Of a DNA stretch of 64,000 bases, positions 40,569 to 52,600 are shown piece by piece. A program made the translations under genes and the position numbers. The number at the start of each line of letters is the position of its first letter. The first letter of the stretch is position 1. The notes beneath the pieces were generated by a model. It saw only the letters and a program-made list of their open reading frames with translations, was not told where the DNA came from and did not search any database. This DNA is from Bolinopsis microptera (taxonomy: Eukaryota > Ctenophora > Tentaculata > Lobata > Bolinopsidae), in the NCBI RefSeq assembly GCF_026151205.1, contig NC_087073.1, forward strand, positions 22,222,270-22,286,269, written 5' to 3'.

Positions 40569-40921
40569 ATTTTACAAACCTTTTTACATTTTGATTATGT
40601 TTTTAAAGCTTTTAGTTGCCATGTTGTATTTGAAGTTCTATCATATAAATTATTTCTAAATTATATAATCATTTCTAATTTACTGTCAACATGACTATTA
40701 TGATAATTCATTTCAACTGCACTCGTTTTATTTTAATTTCAAAACATAATACTTTAGCTTTAGTACGTGCTAATTTCTTTTCAGTGCATAAATAATCGTC
40801 AATCTTATCAATCAATCAATCCAAATTAGCTCCCTTCAATTCTCATCAACTAATTAATCCAAACTTATTAACTAATTAATCCAAACTAAGCCCAGTTAAT
40901 ACTAAATCCATCCAGGTCAGT

Positions 40922-43173
40922 ATGCCGGCTGATGGACCTGCAGTTAGCGATGATTCTCACATCTCCTTCGCGAAGCGCTTGGCACACAACAACAAGGACA
41001 CGCGGGAATCTGCGCTGAAGAAAGTGAAACGTTGGCTGGTTACCAAAAGCAAACAAGGGACCCTGGACCACGACGAAATCATCAAGATATGGAAAGGTCT
41101 GCATTACTCGATGTGGTACAGCGACAAACCTCTCACTCAGCAAACCCTTGCACTTGATATCTCTCAGATTGTATCTCTTCTACCGGATATCGACGATGGT
41201 ATCAGTTTTTTCGGTGGGTTTTGTGAGACGATCGCCCGTGAGTGGGTCGGGATTGATCGTCACAGACTGGACAAATTTTACATGTTTATCAAAACAGCGC
41301 TGAAATGTGTAATGGAATTCTGTAAAGAAAACAATTGGGATGATACGATTGTAAGCAATGTGGTGGATACCCTTGATATCAGGATCATCAACTCACAATC
41401 TCAGTGCCCTGATTCCATCTCCGTTTTTATCTCAGAACATTTATACCCAATCTACTCAGCAATTTGTAATGACTCAACGTCTCCTCTTTTCATCACTGAG
41501 ATGCTCTTGTGTTATGTCACTGCTCTGTCCAAAACACCCAAGAAAGATCTCAGTCGTGTTTTCATGGAAAATCTTTTCAGCCCGATAATTTATAAATCTA
41601 TCAGTTTTAAAGTTGATCACGAGCAGTTGACTTCTTTTATCACCACAATTGCTATTCAACCAGATATTTTGACGAGAAACCGAAAGTTGCTATATAAGCT
41701 TCGTAATGATATTGCAACAGCCGGCGGGGTAGATTTATCCAGTTCTTCTCCCCTTGGCAAACACAAACTGGAGAATGTCAACGACGAGAATGTAAGTTCC
41801 AATAGTCCAGATGGGGCTGAAGTTGGTGATGAGGTTAAACCACCAAAGAAGAAGAAAAAGAAGAAAGTGAAACAAGCTGTCGAGGAAAGTATTGCTGACA
41901 TAACTGAGGAGAATGGAGCAGAAAGTAGTGATACTAAAGTTGAGGAAGCTGCCGCATCTGTCAGTGAAATAGTAGATCAGGGTGAAAAAGAAACTATTCC
42001 TGTAAATGAGCCAGAAGCAGAATCTGCAACTGTTGAAGTTGATCAGAATAACACTGAAGATGTTGAGGAAGCTGAAGATGAGCCGATGGAAACAGAAACA
42101 CATGTTTCTGAACCAGACTCTGTTGTGATCCCCGTTACTGAAGTAGAGTTTGCAGTTCCCACTGTGGTAGAAGAAGCTCCGGTGGTCTCTAATGGTGGAG
42201 TTGAGGATGATAGTGCAATTAATGATGCAGCTGTCATAAGCGAACAAGTTGTTGATGACGTTAAAGAAGTCGTTGATGATACCGTCGCAAGAGAAATGGA
42301 TAATAAGACTTCAGAAGATGGCCAAGAAACTGTTGTTGAAGACGATACCAAAGATGACAGTAACGATACCGGCGGGGATGTAATGGCTGCCGATGAAAGG
42401 AAGAATCCGTGGAACAGACTGTTGACTTAACAGACGAAACGGTCATCGCTCCAGCAGTAATGGATACAAAAGATGAGATTGAGCCATCACTTACCCAGCC
42501 CGAGTTGGAGGTTCCAGCCAAGAAAACTGAAAAACGAAAGTCTACCAAAGGTAAGAAAACACCAAAGAAAACACCAAAGAAGCAGCCCCTGGAACCTGCT
42601 GGACCTGCTGAGAACGAAATCACCGTAGAATTGGAACAACCTTCAGTGGAGAATGGTCAGGAAGTTGCTTTACCCTCAGACGAAACACCAGCCAAGAAAA
42701 CTGAAAAACGAAAGTCTACCAAAGGTAAGAAAACTCCAAAGAAAACACCAAAGAAGCAGCCCCTGGAAGCTGCTGAGCCTGCTGAGAACGAAGTCACCGC
42801 AGAATTGGAACAACCTTCAGTGGAGAATGGTCAGGAAGTTGCTTTACCTTCAGACGAAACAGGTGCAGTATCACCATCTCCAAAAGGAACAAGGACAGCA
42901 GCTTCACTTCGCAAGAGAAAGAAGAAGTCAATCTGTCAAACACCTACCCCTGAATCACCCTCAACCCCCATCGCAGATCCACCCTCAACTAAGAAGAAAG
43001 TGAGGCTGTCAATGGAGAACAACCAAACGTTTTTCTTCAAGAAAAATACATCCTTGGAGAGCCCTAAACCATTCGACAGCACAAGAACGCCACTGAAAGG
43101 TGTTTTGAAGATGTCCCCTGCTCTAACTCGATCACAAGCCAGAAAGAAAGGAAAATCTAGGGTTAAACCTTGA
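40922..43173 (+). CDS. RRP1: Ribosomal RNA processing protein 1 (RRP1/NNP1), with one frameshift
   Basis: The N-terminal NOP52 domain (about residues 12-225) includes FAKRLAHNNKDTRESALKKV and KIWKGLHYSMWYSDKPL, conserved in RRP1. A basic tract PPKKKKKKKVK near residue 305 is a nucleolar/nuclear signal, followed by a long acidic region. At about 42395-42400 one base seems missing in GATGAAAGG: the first frame ends soon after at 42428-42430, and the next frame carries on without loss of sense to 43173. The rejoined protein would be about 750 residues, close to human RRP1B (758). Its end (KKVRLSMENNQTFFFKK, then RTPLKGVLK) resembles the RRP1B tail. RRP1 acts in 27S pre-rRNA processing for the 60S subunit. 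It starts 353 bases after POLE2. Confidence 0.9.
42517..42861 (+). repeat. Two tandem 58-residue repeats in the RRP1 tail
   Basis: A 174-bp unit starting AKKTEKRKSTKGKKTPKKTP is present twice back to back (42517-42690 and 42691-42861) with only a handful of differences. This indicates a recent in-frame duplication of the basic, Lys/Pro-rich tail. Confidence 0.92.
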
Positions 43174-43604: not shown

Positions 43605-46600
43605 ATGGCAGATTATCAAAGCGGCGATACGCAAGTTGAGCAACAGGGCTACGATGACCAGCAGGGCCAATATGGTCAGGAATCGTACGATCAGCAGGAT
43701 CAGTCCTACACTCCGCAAGAATCCTACACAGAACAGAAGGAGAGTAGCTACCCAGAGGAAAATTCGGGAGGTTATCAGAATCAAAACACGCCGTAAGTTT
43801 GTCGCGAAACACGATTTATATCAGCTTTCCATTTTATGTGGCTCCCAGCCCGGCCCTCTCCTCTTAAAGAAGAAACGTAAAATTAAACAAATTAGGTGAT
43901 TTTAGAGAATACGCTGGTAAAATTTTAATAGCACTTTAGAGTTCAGTTTTTCAAAATGTTCCCACATTCAAACGACGATTTGGCGCCCCCCGCACAGCGC
44001 CCCCCTTCGTTACGCCACTGCTGACTTCGAATACTGCTATTGGATTCATCAATCTTTCGGTTTTCGTTTAAACTGACTTGTTTAGTATTGGTATGCAATT
44101 ATGTATCTAAAGTGATTTTGTTTCAGGTACAATGGTGGTAACCAAGGTACCAGAGGACGCGGCCGTGGCCGTGGTGACTCCAGAGGGGGAGGTTTCCGGG
44201 GGAATTCCCGTGGAAGAGGCAGTTCTTTTGGTCGTGGCGGCGGTTCATTTGGTCGTGGAAGTGGGGGTGGGGGTGGGGGTGGGCGCGGTGGTAGCGCACC
44301 TCGTGGAGGCGGTGGTGGAGGATTCACGGCTCAGAAGCGCAGTTATCAACAAGACGAATACCAAGGCAACATGACCGGGTCTATAGAATTCGTGAAGAAG
44401 AGGAAAGTTAACGATAACGTTTACAGAATACTTGTTCCTGTTCGCAGTGTCAAATCAATCATAGGCCCCGTGAGTTCACTTGTGCTATTTCTCATTATGT
44501 TTATGATACTCTCATATTCGACCTCTAATTTTCAATGCAACTCAGTCTTATTATACCAATTTATTGACATAGTTTTAATTTCAGGGTGGCCAAAACATAA
44601 AACAGCTGAAAGAAGCAGCCGGTGAAGGATGCAAAATCTCTATTTATACCCAAGGAGTAAGTTTTAATGTGAATTTAATGATTTGACAAATAATCTCGAA
44701 AAGATATGAGGATTGAAATTGACCTGTAACACCTTGTAATTTTCAGCACCTGCCGTTTGAGTCATCGGCCCAACTGTCTTCCTAAATTCAACTTCATATA
44801 ACAAAACCTATTTGTCTTACAGTTATTAAGTCGATACTTCCCAACTTTAAAGAGTACTTACTATACATTGAATTTGGGTGATAAATCAAATTATCTAATA
44901 ATATAAAAACTAGTCGTCTAGATACATTCTTAAAATTTAGATCTTGGCCGATACTCTTGGCATTCAAACCATCCGTTCTACTTACGAGATTTGCAAAATA
45001 AATATCTGAATTTGCGAAAAATTGGTAAATAGTCGTATAATACATAATTCTGAGCCCTTCCCATGACTGCAATCTAAACGAATGAAATTCCTGGCCTATT
45101 ATATATATATTCAATCTTCATCTTAAATTTCGTTGTTAGTTGATAAGGAGACTAAAAACATAGCAATTTGAATGATAGTGTATACTGACTTTAACATGAA
45201 TGTATGTACCTATAAATGCCTGTAAATATGAAGAATTAGTTATAATAAAGAAATCGACCGTTAAAATTCAAAATTTGAAAGACTATGTAGATGGTATAAA
45301 CTTTCAATAATTTTACAGGTTGCCTGGTTGCAGCCATGACAACTTAATTAAGATAACAAACGAAATGTGTACTAACAAAATCTTTCCAAAGCTTTGCCTC
45401 AAAGAGGCTCAAACCCCCGAAATCTCGATGAAATGCTGAAATGTGTTGATGAAAAATGAGAAAAACTGAAAACTAACAAAACGTTTTCCTGTCTAGACAA
45501 ACAAAGTACCACTGCCTGAGGGTACTGCTGAACGGTAAGAGGAGAATTTCAACAATTGGTTATAAATTAATTCAATTCTATAATTGTTAGAAAGGGGCAA
45601 CCAACTCTATAATTGTTCATGATTATGAAATAATTCGTATCCAAATTTAAGTAAACAATCGTGACCACTTTCACTGACGATTTGGGAAAACTGTACATCC
45701 TAGAGTACGTAAGACGGAAAATTTAATGCGTCGATGAATTTTGATAGTCTTTAAATTATAGTTCGTACGTTATATCAATCCCCAATCAATGACTCTAAAA
45801 ATAATAAACAAATTGCTTTAAGTTTTTGCCATGATAAGAATAAAGAAAACAAATTTTGAGTTGGTTGCCTGCCCATTTTATAATTGTAATCAATAAAATA
45901 TGTTTAATCTAAAAAACCAAATCGTAATACTGAAAAACATTCAATTATGCCAAATGAACAATAAAAATATTTAATGTAACAAGTTCAGAAATGCAAAATA
46001 CCTAAAAATATGTGTAAAATCCGCAACCTAAAAATCATTTAAACTGCTATTATTCATCGCCTAAATTCTATTTCCATTTAGCGTTGTTAGTATCGAAGGA
46101 AGCCCTGAGCAGCTCAAGATCTGTTTGAACGAGGTCGTCAAGAATGTGCAAGCGGTAAGTTCCAAGACTATACGGTGTATACTGTATAGTGTATACCTCT
46201 TAACGTTTCCCTGAATTAGTGTTTTGGACGCAAGTCATAGTTTTTGATAATTTTCATCTTGAAAGCCAACAGTGTTAAAAAATGGTGGGCCCCCCCCCCC
46301 CCCCCCCCCCCCCCTTAAAAAATGGTGGCACCACAACTTTAAACAACTTTAAAATCTTAAAACCATAATTTTCAGGCACCGTTTGACAGGTACAGAGGAA
46401 AGTTCATCTTGAAGTTGATGGTACCAGAACATACGTGCAGTATTGTTATCGGGCCTAAGGGAGCAAATACCAAGAAAATCAGAGAGGTAAGATAAAAAAT
46501 ATCTGTAAACTGATGACCAACTGTTTTTTATTTTGTTTTAAATGGTTTTCTTTCCAGACTATTTTTCAAGTCGTGTCTGTGTATGGCATTATTGGAGGCC

Positions 46601-49600
46601 GCGCCGGAGGGGGTTGACTAAGATTTACATATAATGCAATTTTATACAATTTTATTAAATTCACGGCATCACGACTAAATTTTTCGCGAGTTCGATAATA
46701 AATACTGTAACAGTCACACTCTCCAAATAAAAGGCAAAATCTGAAACAGTGAAACATGTCCTAAAGATGGTGATAGAAAAGTACAAACAAATCCCAGTTA
46801 CAAAATCACGTGAACTCAAAATTGGAATTCATTTTTTTAAAACGCTGGATCTTATTTTAATATGGACTGCAGGATGAAACGCCGCTCAAACCCACCCCCG
46901 CTGCTTCACAGTTCTCTTCATGTAGTAGGACAGCCCTTTTTGGCCTGCTTATCCTCGCACGGAAGCCTTGAATTATTTTGGATTGGAACAGTTTTTTGAT
47001 TTATTCATCTGCAAAACGTTTCAGTTTGTTTGAAACATCAAATCTCCAATCCTTTAAGAAGGTCTTTACTAGTGATATCTAGGTTAAAGTAGACTTTTAT
47101 CGGCAGTGACATAAAAAGGGGGAACCTTAGTCAGGAGTAAAATTTAGTCAGGAGGAAAATTTAGTCAGGAGGAAAATTTAGTCAAGAGGAAAATTTAGTC
47201 GCCAGTTCATGGTATATAAACTTTCCATCCTTACCATATGCAAGCCCACATGTTGGTTCTGAGTCGTACACAAAGTCTCCGTACTTATAGGTGTTACAAG
47301 TTATCGTTTTGCTGCCAGTGTTGATCCAACCATCCTGACACAACACAGTTATTGTGGTACCCGTATCCACTGGAAACTTTGTCTCTGTCGTCACTCTAGT
47401 CCAGCCATCGGGTAATCCAGTGCAAACTATAAAATAGGTTCATTATCATAACTGATTATATAACTGAGAGGACCCCGTGCTCAATGTACCTTTTTTTCTT
47501 CATAATTGATAACATGGGTTCAAGGGAATTTCCTTACCTTCAATTAGTTGCCTATATGCATCTGAAGCGCTATCAAGAGTTCCAAATTTGAAGTGTGCGA
47601 AATCCAAAGACCACATTGTTCTGCACTTAACTTTAGATGATTCTGCGATATTTAAGTCGAATATCTCTAGTCCATTGCAGCTAAGTTGAAGTCTGCTGCT
47701 TTTCATTCTGATCGTCCAAATTCTAAATTCCTCCGCACAGGGCATGGTGAAACTGATTAATTTAGGGGTACAGAGGCCAATGATATATTCCGGGGGATTG
47801 TTAAAATTAACTGTTATCCCTGGACCGTGGTCAGAATTTAACTCAACAAATCGCACCCAGAGGGTATCTCCACTTCCAACCACAGAGTTAGTATGAACTT
47901 GTAGCGGAGCAGAATAAATGTCAAAATCGATGTTGGTGTCTCGAGGTCCACAAGCAGTCCAACCTGTAAACATTTATTGTTCAAATTTCAACTCTATAGA
48001 AGTCCTGCCAATATATGACAGGGAGTAAAGTCAAATATAATCTTGGTGAATCAGGACATAAAGGTCAGAGGAACATTATCTCACCTGATATTTGTGAAGC
48101 GAGAAACCATTGTAAAATAGACAGTAATATGAAAATTTTCATCCTGCAACGTGGTAATATTAAGCTAAAGTGACAAGAGTTGCCATCAGTTGAAAAACAG
48201 GGCCACAAATTGAGTCCAGAAAGATCCGTTGACACAAGTAATCATCAATATTTTTACTCTCTTGAAACAAACAGATGAGAATCAGGACATTTACTTTGCC
48301 CTTTGCAATCACGGAACGCGTGACTATAAATAGGTAATACGTCAGACAATGCCGCCAAAAACCGTCGTTTGGTGGTCAGTACAGCTGGTTGCAATTAGGA
48401 ACCGACCGGTGTAGGGGTTTAGACTGCCGTACCGGAAACGGCCGGATATCAATATATTTTCCGGACCGGAATCAGGTGTTAAGAAAAGGAAATTTGAGGC
48501 TGCCAAAAATTGCCAGAAAATTGAAATTAATCCTTATTTGTGGGCTTTTTTCAATTATAACATTAAAAAAGCCATGTGGATTAACACAATAAGACCGTGT
48601 TTAAAGTCCGACTTACTGTGTTTATACTCAGCTCTATCAGAGGTAACTGGTTGTTTTGCTGTATGATCAGAGCTAGAAACGAGTTGGATTCAAATGAAAA
48701 CGCATATTTCAAGAGTTCACCGCGCCATTCGTAACTAAAATATAGATAAGAGGTTCTTCTAGAAATAAAACCAAAAACCCGGCTCTCACATATTCGTGGC
48801 GTCGACATAACCGAGGATAATGTCCTCTGCTTGCGATTGTTTTGTCATTGGTCTGGGTACCTGCTTTGACTCCTTTCTTTGTGTTACAAAAGAAAAACTC
48901 ACATAAACGGGTCTATAGCATTGGCTGACAGATTACAAGCTACTATGAATTAACTGAGACCATGCTGACTAGATGCAGCTCAACAAGGATTATGCTGGAC
49001 CAGGATGGTCCTACTCATAACATCTTTGGGAGAAAGAGAGAGGGAGAGTGCGACTAATGGTTCCGTCTGAGTTACGATGCGACTAGATCATTTACCTCCT
49101 TTCGCTGGATGCCACATAATCTTTAAAAGCACAATAACATTACATTCAGCTGATGATGCTGTTGCTTAGAGGCGGTGGCTACTGTTCTTGGTTCCTAAGG
49201 GATGACGAGAAATAAGAGGTCTGGATTGCCCCAGGGTCATTAATATCCTTATAACTGCATGTACCCGTAATATCCTTTTGCTATAGGAGTGATAGTCTAT
49301 CATCAGTCACTTAGTCGTTAGCAACCGAGAGCTCAGCATGAGGTCTTAGTGACAAGGCTACTTACTTAACAAAGCCCTAAATATCGTGGGTGTAATCAAA
49401 TCGGGTTTTCTCTATACTAGCCATGACAAAAATAACGACATTTTTGACACAATACCGAAAATGGTGAAACAAATTTCAGTAGACAGTAGATGTTGTCCTT
49501 GACAAATTTCTTTCCTGTTAGATTATATCTTGGTTAAGGAATAGTTTGAAAAAGAGCATAAATGTACCAAATTCATGCCAGTGCTTTACTTGCTCTTTCT

Positions 49601-52600
49601 CACCATCAGTCGCGCAAAAGAAATGTCTGTTAGAATGTGTTTCAAAAATTTAATACACCCGAGTCTGAAGGTTCGTGAAACCTTCGGACTCCAGCTTAAG
49701 AAATATAAACTTTCCATCCTTACCATATGCAAGCCCACATGTTGGTTCTGAGTCGTACACAAAGTCTCCGTACTTATAGGTGTTACAAGTTATCGTTTTG
49801 CTGCCAGTGTTGATCCAACCATCCTGACACAACACAGTTATTGTGGTACCCGTATCCACTGGAAACTTTGTCTCTGTCGTCACTCTAGTCCAGCCATCGG
49901 GTAATCCAGTGCAAACTATAAAATTAAGAAGTTAGCTTGTCTACTGTTGGGGAGGTGATACCCGTGTATTTTGACCCGTGACTGCTATAATTACATTAAT
50001 TGGATCTTCTAGTTGAATATGTAGATATATAAATTTCGCTGTGACAATAGCTTTCGTCAGAACCTCTAACTAAAAACGTACAAGTCACAATTATTACCTT
50101 TAGTGAGTTGTCTAAACATGTCCGAAGCTGTATCAGTGTTAGCATCTGTGCTCATAAATTTAATACGCGCAAAATCCCACGCCCACTTTGTTTTGCAGGT
50201 AATTTCTGATGATTCTTTAAAGTTATAGTCGAATAGTTCTACTCCATTACCATTAAGTTGCAACGTTTCGTTTTGCTTGCTGATCGTCCAAATTTTATGC
50301 TTATCAGCACCGGGCATAGTGAATTCAACATTCGAAATGTTACTGCACTGGCCAATTGAGTATGTCGGGGGATCATTAAACTTTATGTATATCCCTGGAC
50401 CGTCGTCAGAATTGAATTTTACAAATCTAACCCACAGCAAATCACCACTTCCGACTACTGAGTCAGTCTGTATCTGTAACGGGCAAGATTGCAGGTCGAA
50501 ATCAATGTTTGTGTTTCGAGTTCCAGCAGCAGTCCAGTCTGAAGGCAATAAATGAAATACAAATAAATTAGAGAAAGGTATTATAAGATCCTGCGTATCG
50601 AAAATAAAAATATCGTTTATTATTATTATTTATAAGCCGGTAATGATGGGTAGGTTTCGTCATGATCATAAACAAATTAACTTGTAGAATGAAGATTGAA
50701 TAGTTTCCACGTGCCAAAATTATCCGGTGACACACTAACAATGAATGGCATGGGGTGACACAGAAAAAAACTTGTAATTTGTCAACACGATTGATGACAT
50801 GAGACTCTGAGAGAAATTGCTTACCTTCGATTTGTTTTCTATAGGAATCTGAGGCTGTGTCAGCAGTTTCAAATTTAAAATGTGCGAAATCCAAAGACCA
50901 TTTTGTTCTGCAGCCATCTCTAGATGCTTCTGCAAAGTTGAAATCGAGTATCTCTACTCCATTGCAGTTAAGTTGAAGTCTATTGTTTTCCATTCTAAAT
51001 GTCCAAATTTGAATTTTCTCAGCATCGGGCATGTTGAAACTGATTGCATCTGATAAACAATAACCCATTTCGTATAACGGAGGATTTTCAAACTTTACGG
51101 CTAACCCTGGACCGTTGTCAGAATTTGACTCAACAAATCTAACCCACAGCACATCTCCACTTCCGACTACAGAGTCAGTCTGAATCTGTAGCGCGGAAGA
51201 TTTTATATCGAAATCAATGTTTGTTCTTCGGGTTCCAGCAGCAATCCAATCTGAGAACAAAAACAGTTTACTATTTTGAATACTTACAGAAGCATTCGGT
51301 GCTCAATATTTGGTACACTATCTTATGAAAGGTATTGGAAGTAATGTTTAGGTTGGCGAGGTATGTAGAACATCGCCCTAATCATGGAACATTCGTCAAA
51401 TATCTTAAATAAAGTTACCAGCTTACCATTTGATCGAACAAGGCTAATGAAAAGAAAAAGCAGCCACATTTCAAGCACTTTTTATCTGTTCTCAATACGA
51501 CTCCGAAAACAAAAGTTTTAAAATGTTAACTATTAATTTTCTCTCAACAGCTACCAAATTACCCACAGTTATTATCGTAGCACGTGAATTTTGGCAGCTA
51601 TAATTGACCAGTGACCTCTTAAACCAAGGTTTAAAACTCGTTTAATAGCTTGTAATTGTTCATTGCTAAGCAACTGCAGCTGTAACACGTGACACGTGCT
51701 CCAGAGTGCAAGTGTTACTCTGTTGTTGTTATAAATAGAGTCATTATAATTACTGAGCACTTATTGCGTAGCAAACTCCTGGAGTGCTCATAACACACGA
51801 CGATTATTGGTCACTCGAAATCGACCCGTTAAGAATGCAATGTATGTGTGATGGTTGTTTCTGCGTATTTGTTACCTGTTACTAATTAATCAACAGGATC
51901 ATAATGTTGATTGTATCGATAAAACATGGATTTAAGGCATAAGGAAGCATTGTTGGGTTCTGAAACCAAGTTTAATCGATTTCTCGTGCAATTTTAGGTT
52001 AGCTAGGGATGGTCATCAAAATAAGTTTATAACAATGTCGATACTTTGGTAAATTTCTAGCTTTCTGCCAGAAAATAAATTTTCGGTTTCTATAGGGCCA
52101 TAGGGGGTAATTAGGTATAAACTACAGTACAGCTGTACTTATGTAATAATTGAAATTATTTGAGAAAGTTGAATAATCTCTGCGGTCGACCGATCGAATC
52201 GTGCCTGTCAAAACAGTTATTTGTCGTTTCATGATAAAACGTGGTTTCGACACAGCAAAAAAACAGTTTTTAAAGGGTGCATCTCAAAGATATGAGCCTA
52301 GCCAAACATACCCTGATACCCTTAAGTCTACGTTTCTTAGACACATATTTTCGATACATTACGTCTAGATCACACAACCTCCCATTAACAAATAACTCTT
52401 GTCCTCAGGAGACAGATACGATAGTCCAGTTGTTCAGAGATCCACTGCCTGCTTCAGGAGAACATGTCGTCAACCTCAAGAATCAAGATCACGAGAAGTT
52501 GGTCGAAGCTGCAATCGGCGTCTACGAGAACATTCAGGAGGTTAGTTTCTGGCATTCAAATCTTACCTATCCATATATTAATCTAGTAGTAATGCGACCT

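Follow-up and report, generated by a model that had tools for sequence, protein, structure and literature searches.

What are the two genes that lie on the minus strand within a single intron of an RNA-binding protein gene of the ctenophore Bolinopsis microptera, and to what kind of protein family do they belong? We addressed this question in a window of 64,000 nucleotides (the whole stretch of DNA analysed; contig C2:22222270-22286269), in which an intron of a host gene of the KH/RGG type holds two predicted antisense genes, here called A and B. Our account, to which we assign a probability of about 60%, is that A and B are duplicates formed within the intron and are old outliers of a family of binding proteins diversified in the germline. 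As judged from sequence and structure prediction, each product would comprise a signal peptide, one or two modules of galectin fold and a Sushi-like module; both are most likely secreted recognition proteins. Family searches covered this one genome (264,652,675 bases in 232 contigs, the 13 large contigs C1-C13 together holding at least 256 Mb, approximately 97% of the assembly), and we do not claim that the family is restricted to ctenophores.

The nested genes and the predicted fold of their domain

Gene modelling gave a product of 242 amino acids from three exons for gene A (minus strand, 48142-47182, ATG at 48142) and of 391 amino acids from four exons for gene B (minus strand, 51469-49650, ATG at 51469). 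Every exon was open, both models ran completely from ATG to stop, and all inner borders were AG/GT in phase 1; as gene models, A and B each lie wholly inside the one intron. Both N-termini were hydrophobic and ended at a phase-1 GT donor, as scored with a simple hydropathy rule rather than SignalP. The original prediction of two complete nested genes with signal peptides and phase-1 domain exons, one of them duplicated in gene B (B1 and B2), was thus borne out at the level of gene models; the exon length of 426 bp that it gave for both genes applies to A and B1, whereas B2 measures 441 bp. The last exons matched Sushi (PF00084) with E values of 0.006–0.009 at 17.4 and 16.8 bits, and because these scores fall below the curated cut-off of 20.7 bits we call them Sushi-like only. 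Neither gene model contained GPS or 7tm_2.

The original prediction had left the domain without a secure name, and Pfam searches agreed: none of the three window domains matched any family at E 1, and among 42 family members 13 families were listed, scattered and with a best E of 0.013 or worse, PF00337 (galectin) being absent. The structural comparison that it had proposed gave a clear candidate. An AlphaFold2 model of B1 built on a 42-row alignment from this genome reached a predicted local distance difference test score (pLDDT) of 95.2, and galectins headed the lists of both VIA-align, where the match covered the whole domain (Z 12.0, root-mean-square deviation 2.9 Å, 124/141 residues), and Foldseek (best E 2.7e-05). 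A separate AlphaFold2 model of a member of the family's main branch (pLDDT 95.9) also placed galectins first (Z 10.7, 2.9 Å, 121 residues; Foldseek best E 7.4e-05), with pentraxin, laminin and other sandwiches ranking below the first galectins in Foldseek. The domain is therefore predicted to be a galectin-like beta-sandwich that is not recognisable as a galectin from its sequence.

Canonical galectins form a separate set in this genome: the PF00337 profile found 30 places, none of which, by eye, was among the 150 scored family exons. One canonical two-domain galectin (G000:C6:8729711-8730511, L056) carries H-x-D-x-R and W-x-x-E-x-R and stands apart from the family. The sugar-binding motif of galectins consists of H-x-N-x-R and W-x-x-E-x-R. 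This galactoside-binding motif was missing from the family alignments, and the positions likely to be equivalent to it by strand order, without superposition (50, 52, 54, 60 and 62), were among the most variable.

Other identities for the domain were tried and rejected. The farnesoic acid O-methyltransferase domain (PF12248), our first guess, was not among the families listed for the 42 members, and a genome search with it gave 0 matches, without a working positive control. CUB matched only 2 of the 42 members (best E 0.11), a sequence profile search of the PDB returned one chain at E 1.4, and a search for prokaryote relatives returned 40 stretches that fit a short pattern and 0 relatives.

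Genes A and B would descend from one ancestor duplicated within the host intron. Domain A was 65% and domain B2 58% identical to B1. Pairs of window domains differed by 0.24–0.32 nonsynonymous (dN) and 0.63–1.10 synonymous (dS) substitutions per site; the dN/dS ratios of 0.29–0.44 indicate coding sequence maintained by overall purifying selection. A tree of 83 exons placed the three window domains in one group (100/90; the bootstrap had not settled and is rough), within which A paired with B1 (100/95) and B2 lay outside. Because of this branching order, the ancestor probably had tandem domains, of which A lost one or copied one alone. The sister of the trio was an exon on contig C11 (L006) with its own Sushi-like exon 147 bp further on. 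In addition, A and B share a 222-nt tract with 100% identity, while the domain exons of A and B1 beside it were 75% identical and the next Sushi-like exons after the A/B pair reached at most 57% protein identity among the matches listed. One end of the tract reaches 9 bases into the intron and the other falls within the last exon; the flanks differ, and we read the tract as recent local gene conversion or as copying of the last exon alone.

Two further observations were made at these loci. A 17-bp tandem repeat (47120-47204) overlaps the coding end of gene A, where the likeness between A and B stops. On contig C11, three similar discoidin-like frames (L045:798-3173, plus strand) lie upstream of the lectin-like exon of the nested genes' closest relative; the discoidin label is our own reading, and the one frame scanned gave only a sub-threshold Tectonin match.

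A large, putatively modular family with a hypervariable face

With the domain of gene A as query, a six-frame protein search gave 340 candidates, of which the best 150 were scored, all at E 3.6e-08 or lower. Apart from the window trio, 147 of the scored places matched (E 2.1e-28 to 3.6e-08), so the domain extends far beyond chance. A main-branch query gave 426 candidates, and its best 150 included places that were not in the gene A list; the description of the family as small in the original prediction must accordingly be abandoned. Every one of the 13 large contigs had matches, as did C45, and a stop codon was present in 4/150 scored places. From the 147 relatives, 80 exons were fetched, none of them from the four stop-bearing places; 79 had an in-phase AG and GT under a lenient nearest-site rule. 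Their lengths ranged from 405 to 465 bp, with 426 bp in a single case, and given this spread the shared 426-bp length carries little weight.

Within a large modular family defined by a phase-1 galectin-like exon, A and B would thus be old outliers; on all 13 large contigs this exon appears to adjoin Sushi-like, cysteine-rich (Cys-rich) and sometimes adhesion-GPCR-like (G-protein-coupled receptor) seven-transmembrane (7TM) exons. For at least 42/150 domain exons a Sushi-like exon on the same strand lay no further than 5 kb away (40 downstream, 2 upstream); on the opposite strand this held for none of the 150 among the matches listed. This one-sided arrangement supports the Sushi-like module of the original prediction, which would be weak on its profile scores alone. 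Cys-rich exons were found within 3 kb on the same strand, downstream of at least 34/150 and upstream of at least 4 domain exons, with at least 1 on the opposite strand. For 11/150 domain exons at nine loci, a same-strand 7tm_2 match lay no more than 15 kb downstream, and none of the remaining three arrangements gave a match at this distance; with the limit at 30 kb, the counts for the four arrangements were 14, 1, 0 and 1. Other modules beside members were TSP_1 (L047, E 2.5e-12) and Ephrin_rec_like (L045, 23.4 bits against a cut-off of 23.1).

Near-identical repeats of a Cys-rich (Ephrin_rec-like) exon were also seen downstream of lectin-like exons on C8 (L049), C13 (L054) and C11 (L052), with a spacing of approximately 735–745 bp in L049 and L054. 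Among the matches listed, a lectin-like exon lay within 10 kb upstream of 110/150 scored Cys-rich places. Eight main-branch loci shared aligned blocks of up to 2.9 kb at approximately 74–98% identity around the exon, part of which consisted of tandem Cys-rich exons. No mobile element carrying the domain exon was found around the main-branch loci in these alignments and in nine flanking open reading frames chosen for Pfam; two of the nine had a reverse-transcriptase match. Beside main-branch copies lay RVT_1 (E 1.6e-18, L048:517-1146, minus strand) and zf-RVT (E 8.6e-04, under its cut-off, L050:5670-5999, minus strand). A spliced-leader motif gave 8 genome matches against 4 with its reversed control; the ctenophore spliced-leader end (ATTAATTTGAGGT) was partially matched three times on a single strand within 67 kb (G000:C13:12827397-12894453), a possible leader cluster.

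The main branch comprised 48 of the 80 fetched exons and was defined by the common donor GTRACTAA. Hypervariable columns were those with an entropy of at least 1.8 bits in 22 first-batch exons (23 columns), and they were tested on 26 second-batch exons. In the second batch, dN in the chosen columns was 1.015 versus a dS of 0.201 over all columns, a ratio of 5.04 (half-subsamples 4.31–5.95), and the scaffold dN/dS was 0.56. Column entropies of the two batches correlated at 0.84. Even among the 21 closest of 325 pairs (proportion of synonymous differences, pS, below 0.10), the proportion of nonsynonymous differences (pN) in hypervariable columns was 0.40 at an overall pS of 0.066. Flanking introns of the main branch differed by 17.5% upstream and 10.7% downstream.

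Along strands 33–38, 48–54 and 58–63, variable and fixed residues alternated (permutation p 2e-4, second batch). Over all 48 exons from both batches, the face assigned by parity (33, 35, 37, 48, 50, 52, 54, 58, 60 and 62) showed a pN of 0.593 and a pS of 0.26, and the reverse face 0.083 and 0.108. In the window trio, pN was 0.421 on the face versus 0.107 on the reverse, with pS at 0.48 versus 0.51; the nested genes appear to share the face pattern of the main branch without dN above dS, and an excess of dN at the putative ligand-side residues was found in the main branch only. Distinct hypervariable signatures were present in 46 of the 48 main-branch exons. The main-branch face has most likely been shaped by diversifying selection, which these values strongly indicate and do not prove.

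In the predicted structure, the main branch would thus carry hypervariable residues on one face of three neighbouring strands over a conserved scaffold. The sugar-side strand of galectin-1 bears H44, N46 and R48. By strand order it would correspond approximately to residues 48–54, which would make the variable face the sugar side; fold and strand order together suggest that this face is the counterpart of the galectin ligand side.

At loci on C8, C5 and C4, lectin-like exons were followed downstream by Cys-rich exons and by a single long exon in which GPS and 7tm_2 were present and HRM matched at sub- or near-threshold level. At C8, a single 757-aa frame contained GPS (E 1.1e-08), 7tm_2 (E 1.3e-19) and a sub-threshold HRM. 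The three long exons differed by a pN of 0.012–0.018 and a pS of 0.021–0.049, and the lectin-like exons by a pN of 0.092–0.177 and a pS of 0.044–0.132, the exception being one near-identical pair of lectin-like exons at C5 (pN 0.009). These values suggest that the ectodomain has undergone roughly 8–14 times as much amino-acid change as the signalling part. On C5 (G000:C5:19223549-19226813, L100:593-3932), three tandem lectin-like exons precede a single 7TM backbone and may either encode domains in tandem or serve as mutually exclusive exons.

Weighing the account against alternatives

Taken together, each copy would present a different ligand face, either secreted together with Sushi modules, as in A and B, or on a 7TM signalling receptor. 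Candidate targets would be microbial or the animal's own glycans, gametes and prey, with microbial recognition as a first guess.

Several points weigh against this account. A profile comparison with hhalign against two canonical galectin repeats of the same genome gave a probability of 0.2%, so kinship with galectins has to be argued from the fold. In the relatives, the joins of the domain to Sushi-like, Cys-rich and 7TM exons are defined by position and strand, and with the hydropathy rule no signal-peptide exon was found within 3 kb at 6 of 8 main-branch exons, the other two having candidates. For gene B, no polyadenylation signal was found within 900 nt of the stop. With respect to selection, the strands and parity were chosen after the first batch had been seen, and pairwise dN/dS values are not independent. 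In the second batch, pS was 0.332 in hypervariable columns against 0.139 in the scaffold, and dN in the hypervariable columns was approximately 2.3 times their own dS (0.44, worked out) rather than 5.0 times. Part of this raised pS may reflect multiple hits in one codon and part a higher local rate, and copy-to-copy conversion could depress scaffold dS. The hypervariable columns of the window trio showed no dN excess, pN (0.477) being close to pS (0.491), and at the receptor loci the pS of lectin-like exons also exceeded that of the backbone.

A different ligand class is an unlikely alternative that still deserves weight. Here the anatomy is the same, and the variable face serves gamete or self recognition, prey capture or mucus adhesion. 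Gamete-recognition and adhesive proteins are also known for diversifying selection, and the domains are found in two settings, behind signal peptides and in the neighbourhood of adhesion-GPCR-like exons. However, 46 distinct signatures among 48 exons suggest many ligands rather than one partner, and no evidence obtained here separates the ligand classes.

We consider it improbable that the variability stems from a local process instead of ordinary mutation and selection alone, be it mutation that is targeted or elevated or conversion that draws on a variant pool. Such a process would account for the synonymous change raised alongside amino-acid change in the hypervariable columns, and many scaffold codons are nearly unchanged even synonymously. 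The first variable block's similarity only weakly predicted that of the second (r 0.14), a looseness that fits reshuffling or strong selection, and the window itself provides a case of exon-wide identity between two diverged genes in the 222-nt tract. Nevertheless, dN still exceeded dS within the same columns, and the variable columns track protein geometry, as under selection. Diversity-generating retroelements introduce variation at template adenines only; here, positions with a majority base below 70% numbered 22/123 for A, 13/102 for C, 19/104 for G and 11/106 for T, no strong one-base bias and a picture different from adenine-directed mutagenesis. With A as the majority base in only 22/65 variable positions, a product of such an element was rejected.

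There is a slim chance that A and B act chiefly through antisense transcription on the host gene, the interference with host splicing that the original prediction had raised. Both are antisense within one host intron, and PMC8527503 names antisense competition among the roles that nested genes in general might have; on the other side stand their frames and splice sites, which appear to be under protein-level purifying selection, and the 147 scored relatives of their domain that sit outside the host intron. We give hardly any credence to the idea that A and B are copies in decay or artefacts of assembly. Although the perfect 222-nt repeat could mark a mis-join and gene B lacks a nearby polyadenylation signal, all exons are open from ATG to stop with AG/GT inner borders, the sequence beyond the ends of the tract differs, and the KH frame runs on across the host intron.

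The host intron, feature positions and comparison with known systems

KH_1 matched the joined host peptide at E 2.9e-08 over residues 12–67, with the exon-exon junction after residue 37; because this match crosses the junction, we regard the intron as real and in phase 0 inside the KH domain, in keeping with the original prediction that it splits the domain. A later host exon is rich in Q/N and RGG. The host intron directly 5' of the KH exon contains a run of 25 C (46290-46314), where assembly slippage is possible. Upstream of the host gene, long open frames at 40880-43173 (plus strand) contain a repeated KTEKRKSTKGKKTPKKTPKKQPLE unit, and their N-terminus is one that we take to resemble RRP1/Nop52.

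Table 1. Positions of the host exons, the intron and the predicted parts of genes A and B in the window
Feature	Position	Strand	Basis
Host KH/RGG gene, exon 5' of the intron, encoding the first half of the KH domain	46376..46486	+	TTTCAG acceptor, GTAAGA donor
Host intron holding genes A and B, 5,922 bp, phase 0	46487..52408	+	Intron borders GTAAGA..CTCAG; frame open across the join
Host exon 3' of the intron, encoding the second half of the KH domain	52409..52540	+	KH_1 match of joined exons
Gene A, exon 1, predicted signal peptide, 19 codons + 1 base	48085..48142	-	Hydropathy; donor GTGAGA; AG directly before ATG
Gene A, domain exon, predicted galectin fold, 426 bp, phase 1-1	47538..47963	-	65% identical to the modelled B1 domain
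Gene A, Sushi-like last exon, stop codon 47182-47184	47182..47426	-	Pfam profile match below cut-off
222-nt tract, gene A copy, identical to 49703-49924	47214..47435	-	100% over 222 nt
AATAAA, 177 nt past gene A stop	47000..47005	-	Short motif, may be chance
Gene B, exon 1, predicted signal peptide, 14 codons + 1 base	51427..51469	-	Hydropathy; donor GTAAGC
Gene B, domain exon B1, predicted galectin fold, 426 bp, phase 1-1	50825..51250	-	Sequence used for structure model
Gene B, domain exon B2, predicted galectin fold, 441 bp, phase 1-1	50098..50538	-	Exon length measured
Gene B, Sushi-like last exon, stop codon 49650-49652	49650..49915	-	Pfam profile match below cut-off
222-nt tract, gene B copy, identical to 47214-47435	49703..49924	-	100% over 222 nt

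Classical galectins have no signal peptides, whereas the domains of A and B follow signal peptides and sit in phase-1 exons. Snail fibrinogen-related proteins and other germline-diversified invertebrate lectins are also large multigene families with variable ligand-side residues on a stable scaffold. Unlike the fold of the snail proteins, that predicted here is galectin-like, and the variation described lies between loci of one genome. The GPS and 7tm_2 of adhesion GPCRs were found at the C8, C5 and C4 relatives and not in the gene models of A and B, and to our knowledge the galectin-like exon is not a module of other adhesion GPCRs.

The original prediction had called the nesting unusual. According to a study of Hormiphora californensis, however, that genome holds 2,357 nested intronic genes in 1,654 hosts, amounting to 12.24% of exonic bases (PMC8527503), and judged from that species nesting of the A/B type appears ordinary in ctenophores. 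As in those cases, A and B are antisense genes wholly inside one intron; a minor addition is that they form a tandem pair sharing one homogenised exon. The position in the intron would be a by-product of genome packing with no part in function.

Mnemiopsis, Bolinopsis and Hormiphora have been surveyed for immune genes by Pfam domains (PMC11797021); that survey would probably overlook the present domain, given that it had no match to any Pfam model in our searches. Among the matches listed in the open-licence PubMed Central literature, none described a hypervariable galectin-like family of ctenophores, which is weak evidence since subscription papers mostly lie outside that collection. The analysis names residues for testing (33/35/37, 48–54 and 58–62 in B1 numbering). 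In its widest form, which we hold tentatively and at somewhat less than even odds, the finding would mean that this ctenophore possesses a germline-diversified repertoire of more than 150 galectin-fold modules, some of them placed before near-identical adhesion-GPCR backbones, with a ligand face made hypervariable by selection on a frozen scaffold. Genes A and B would be the soluble, Sushi-bearing, older arm of this repertoire, which would be unlike those we know from other animals.

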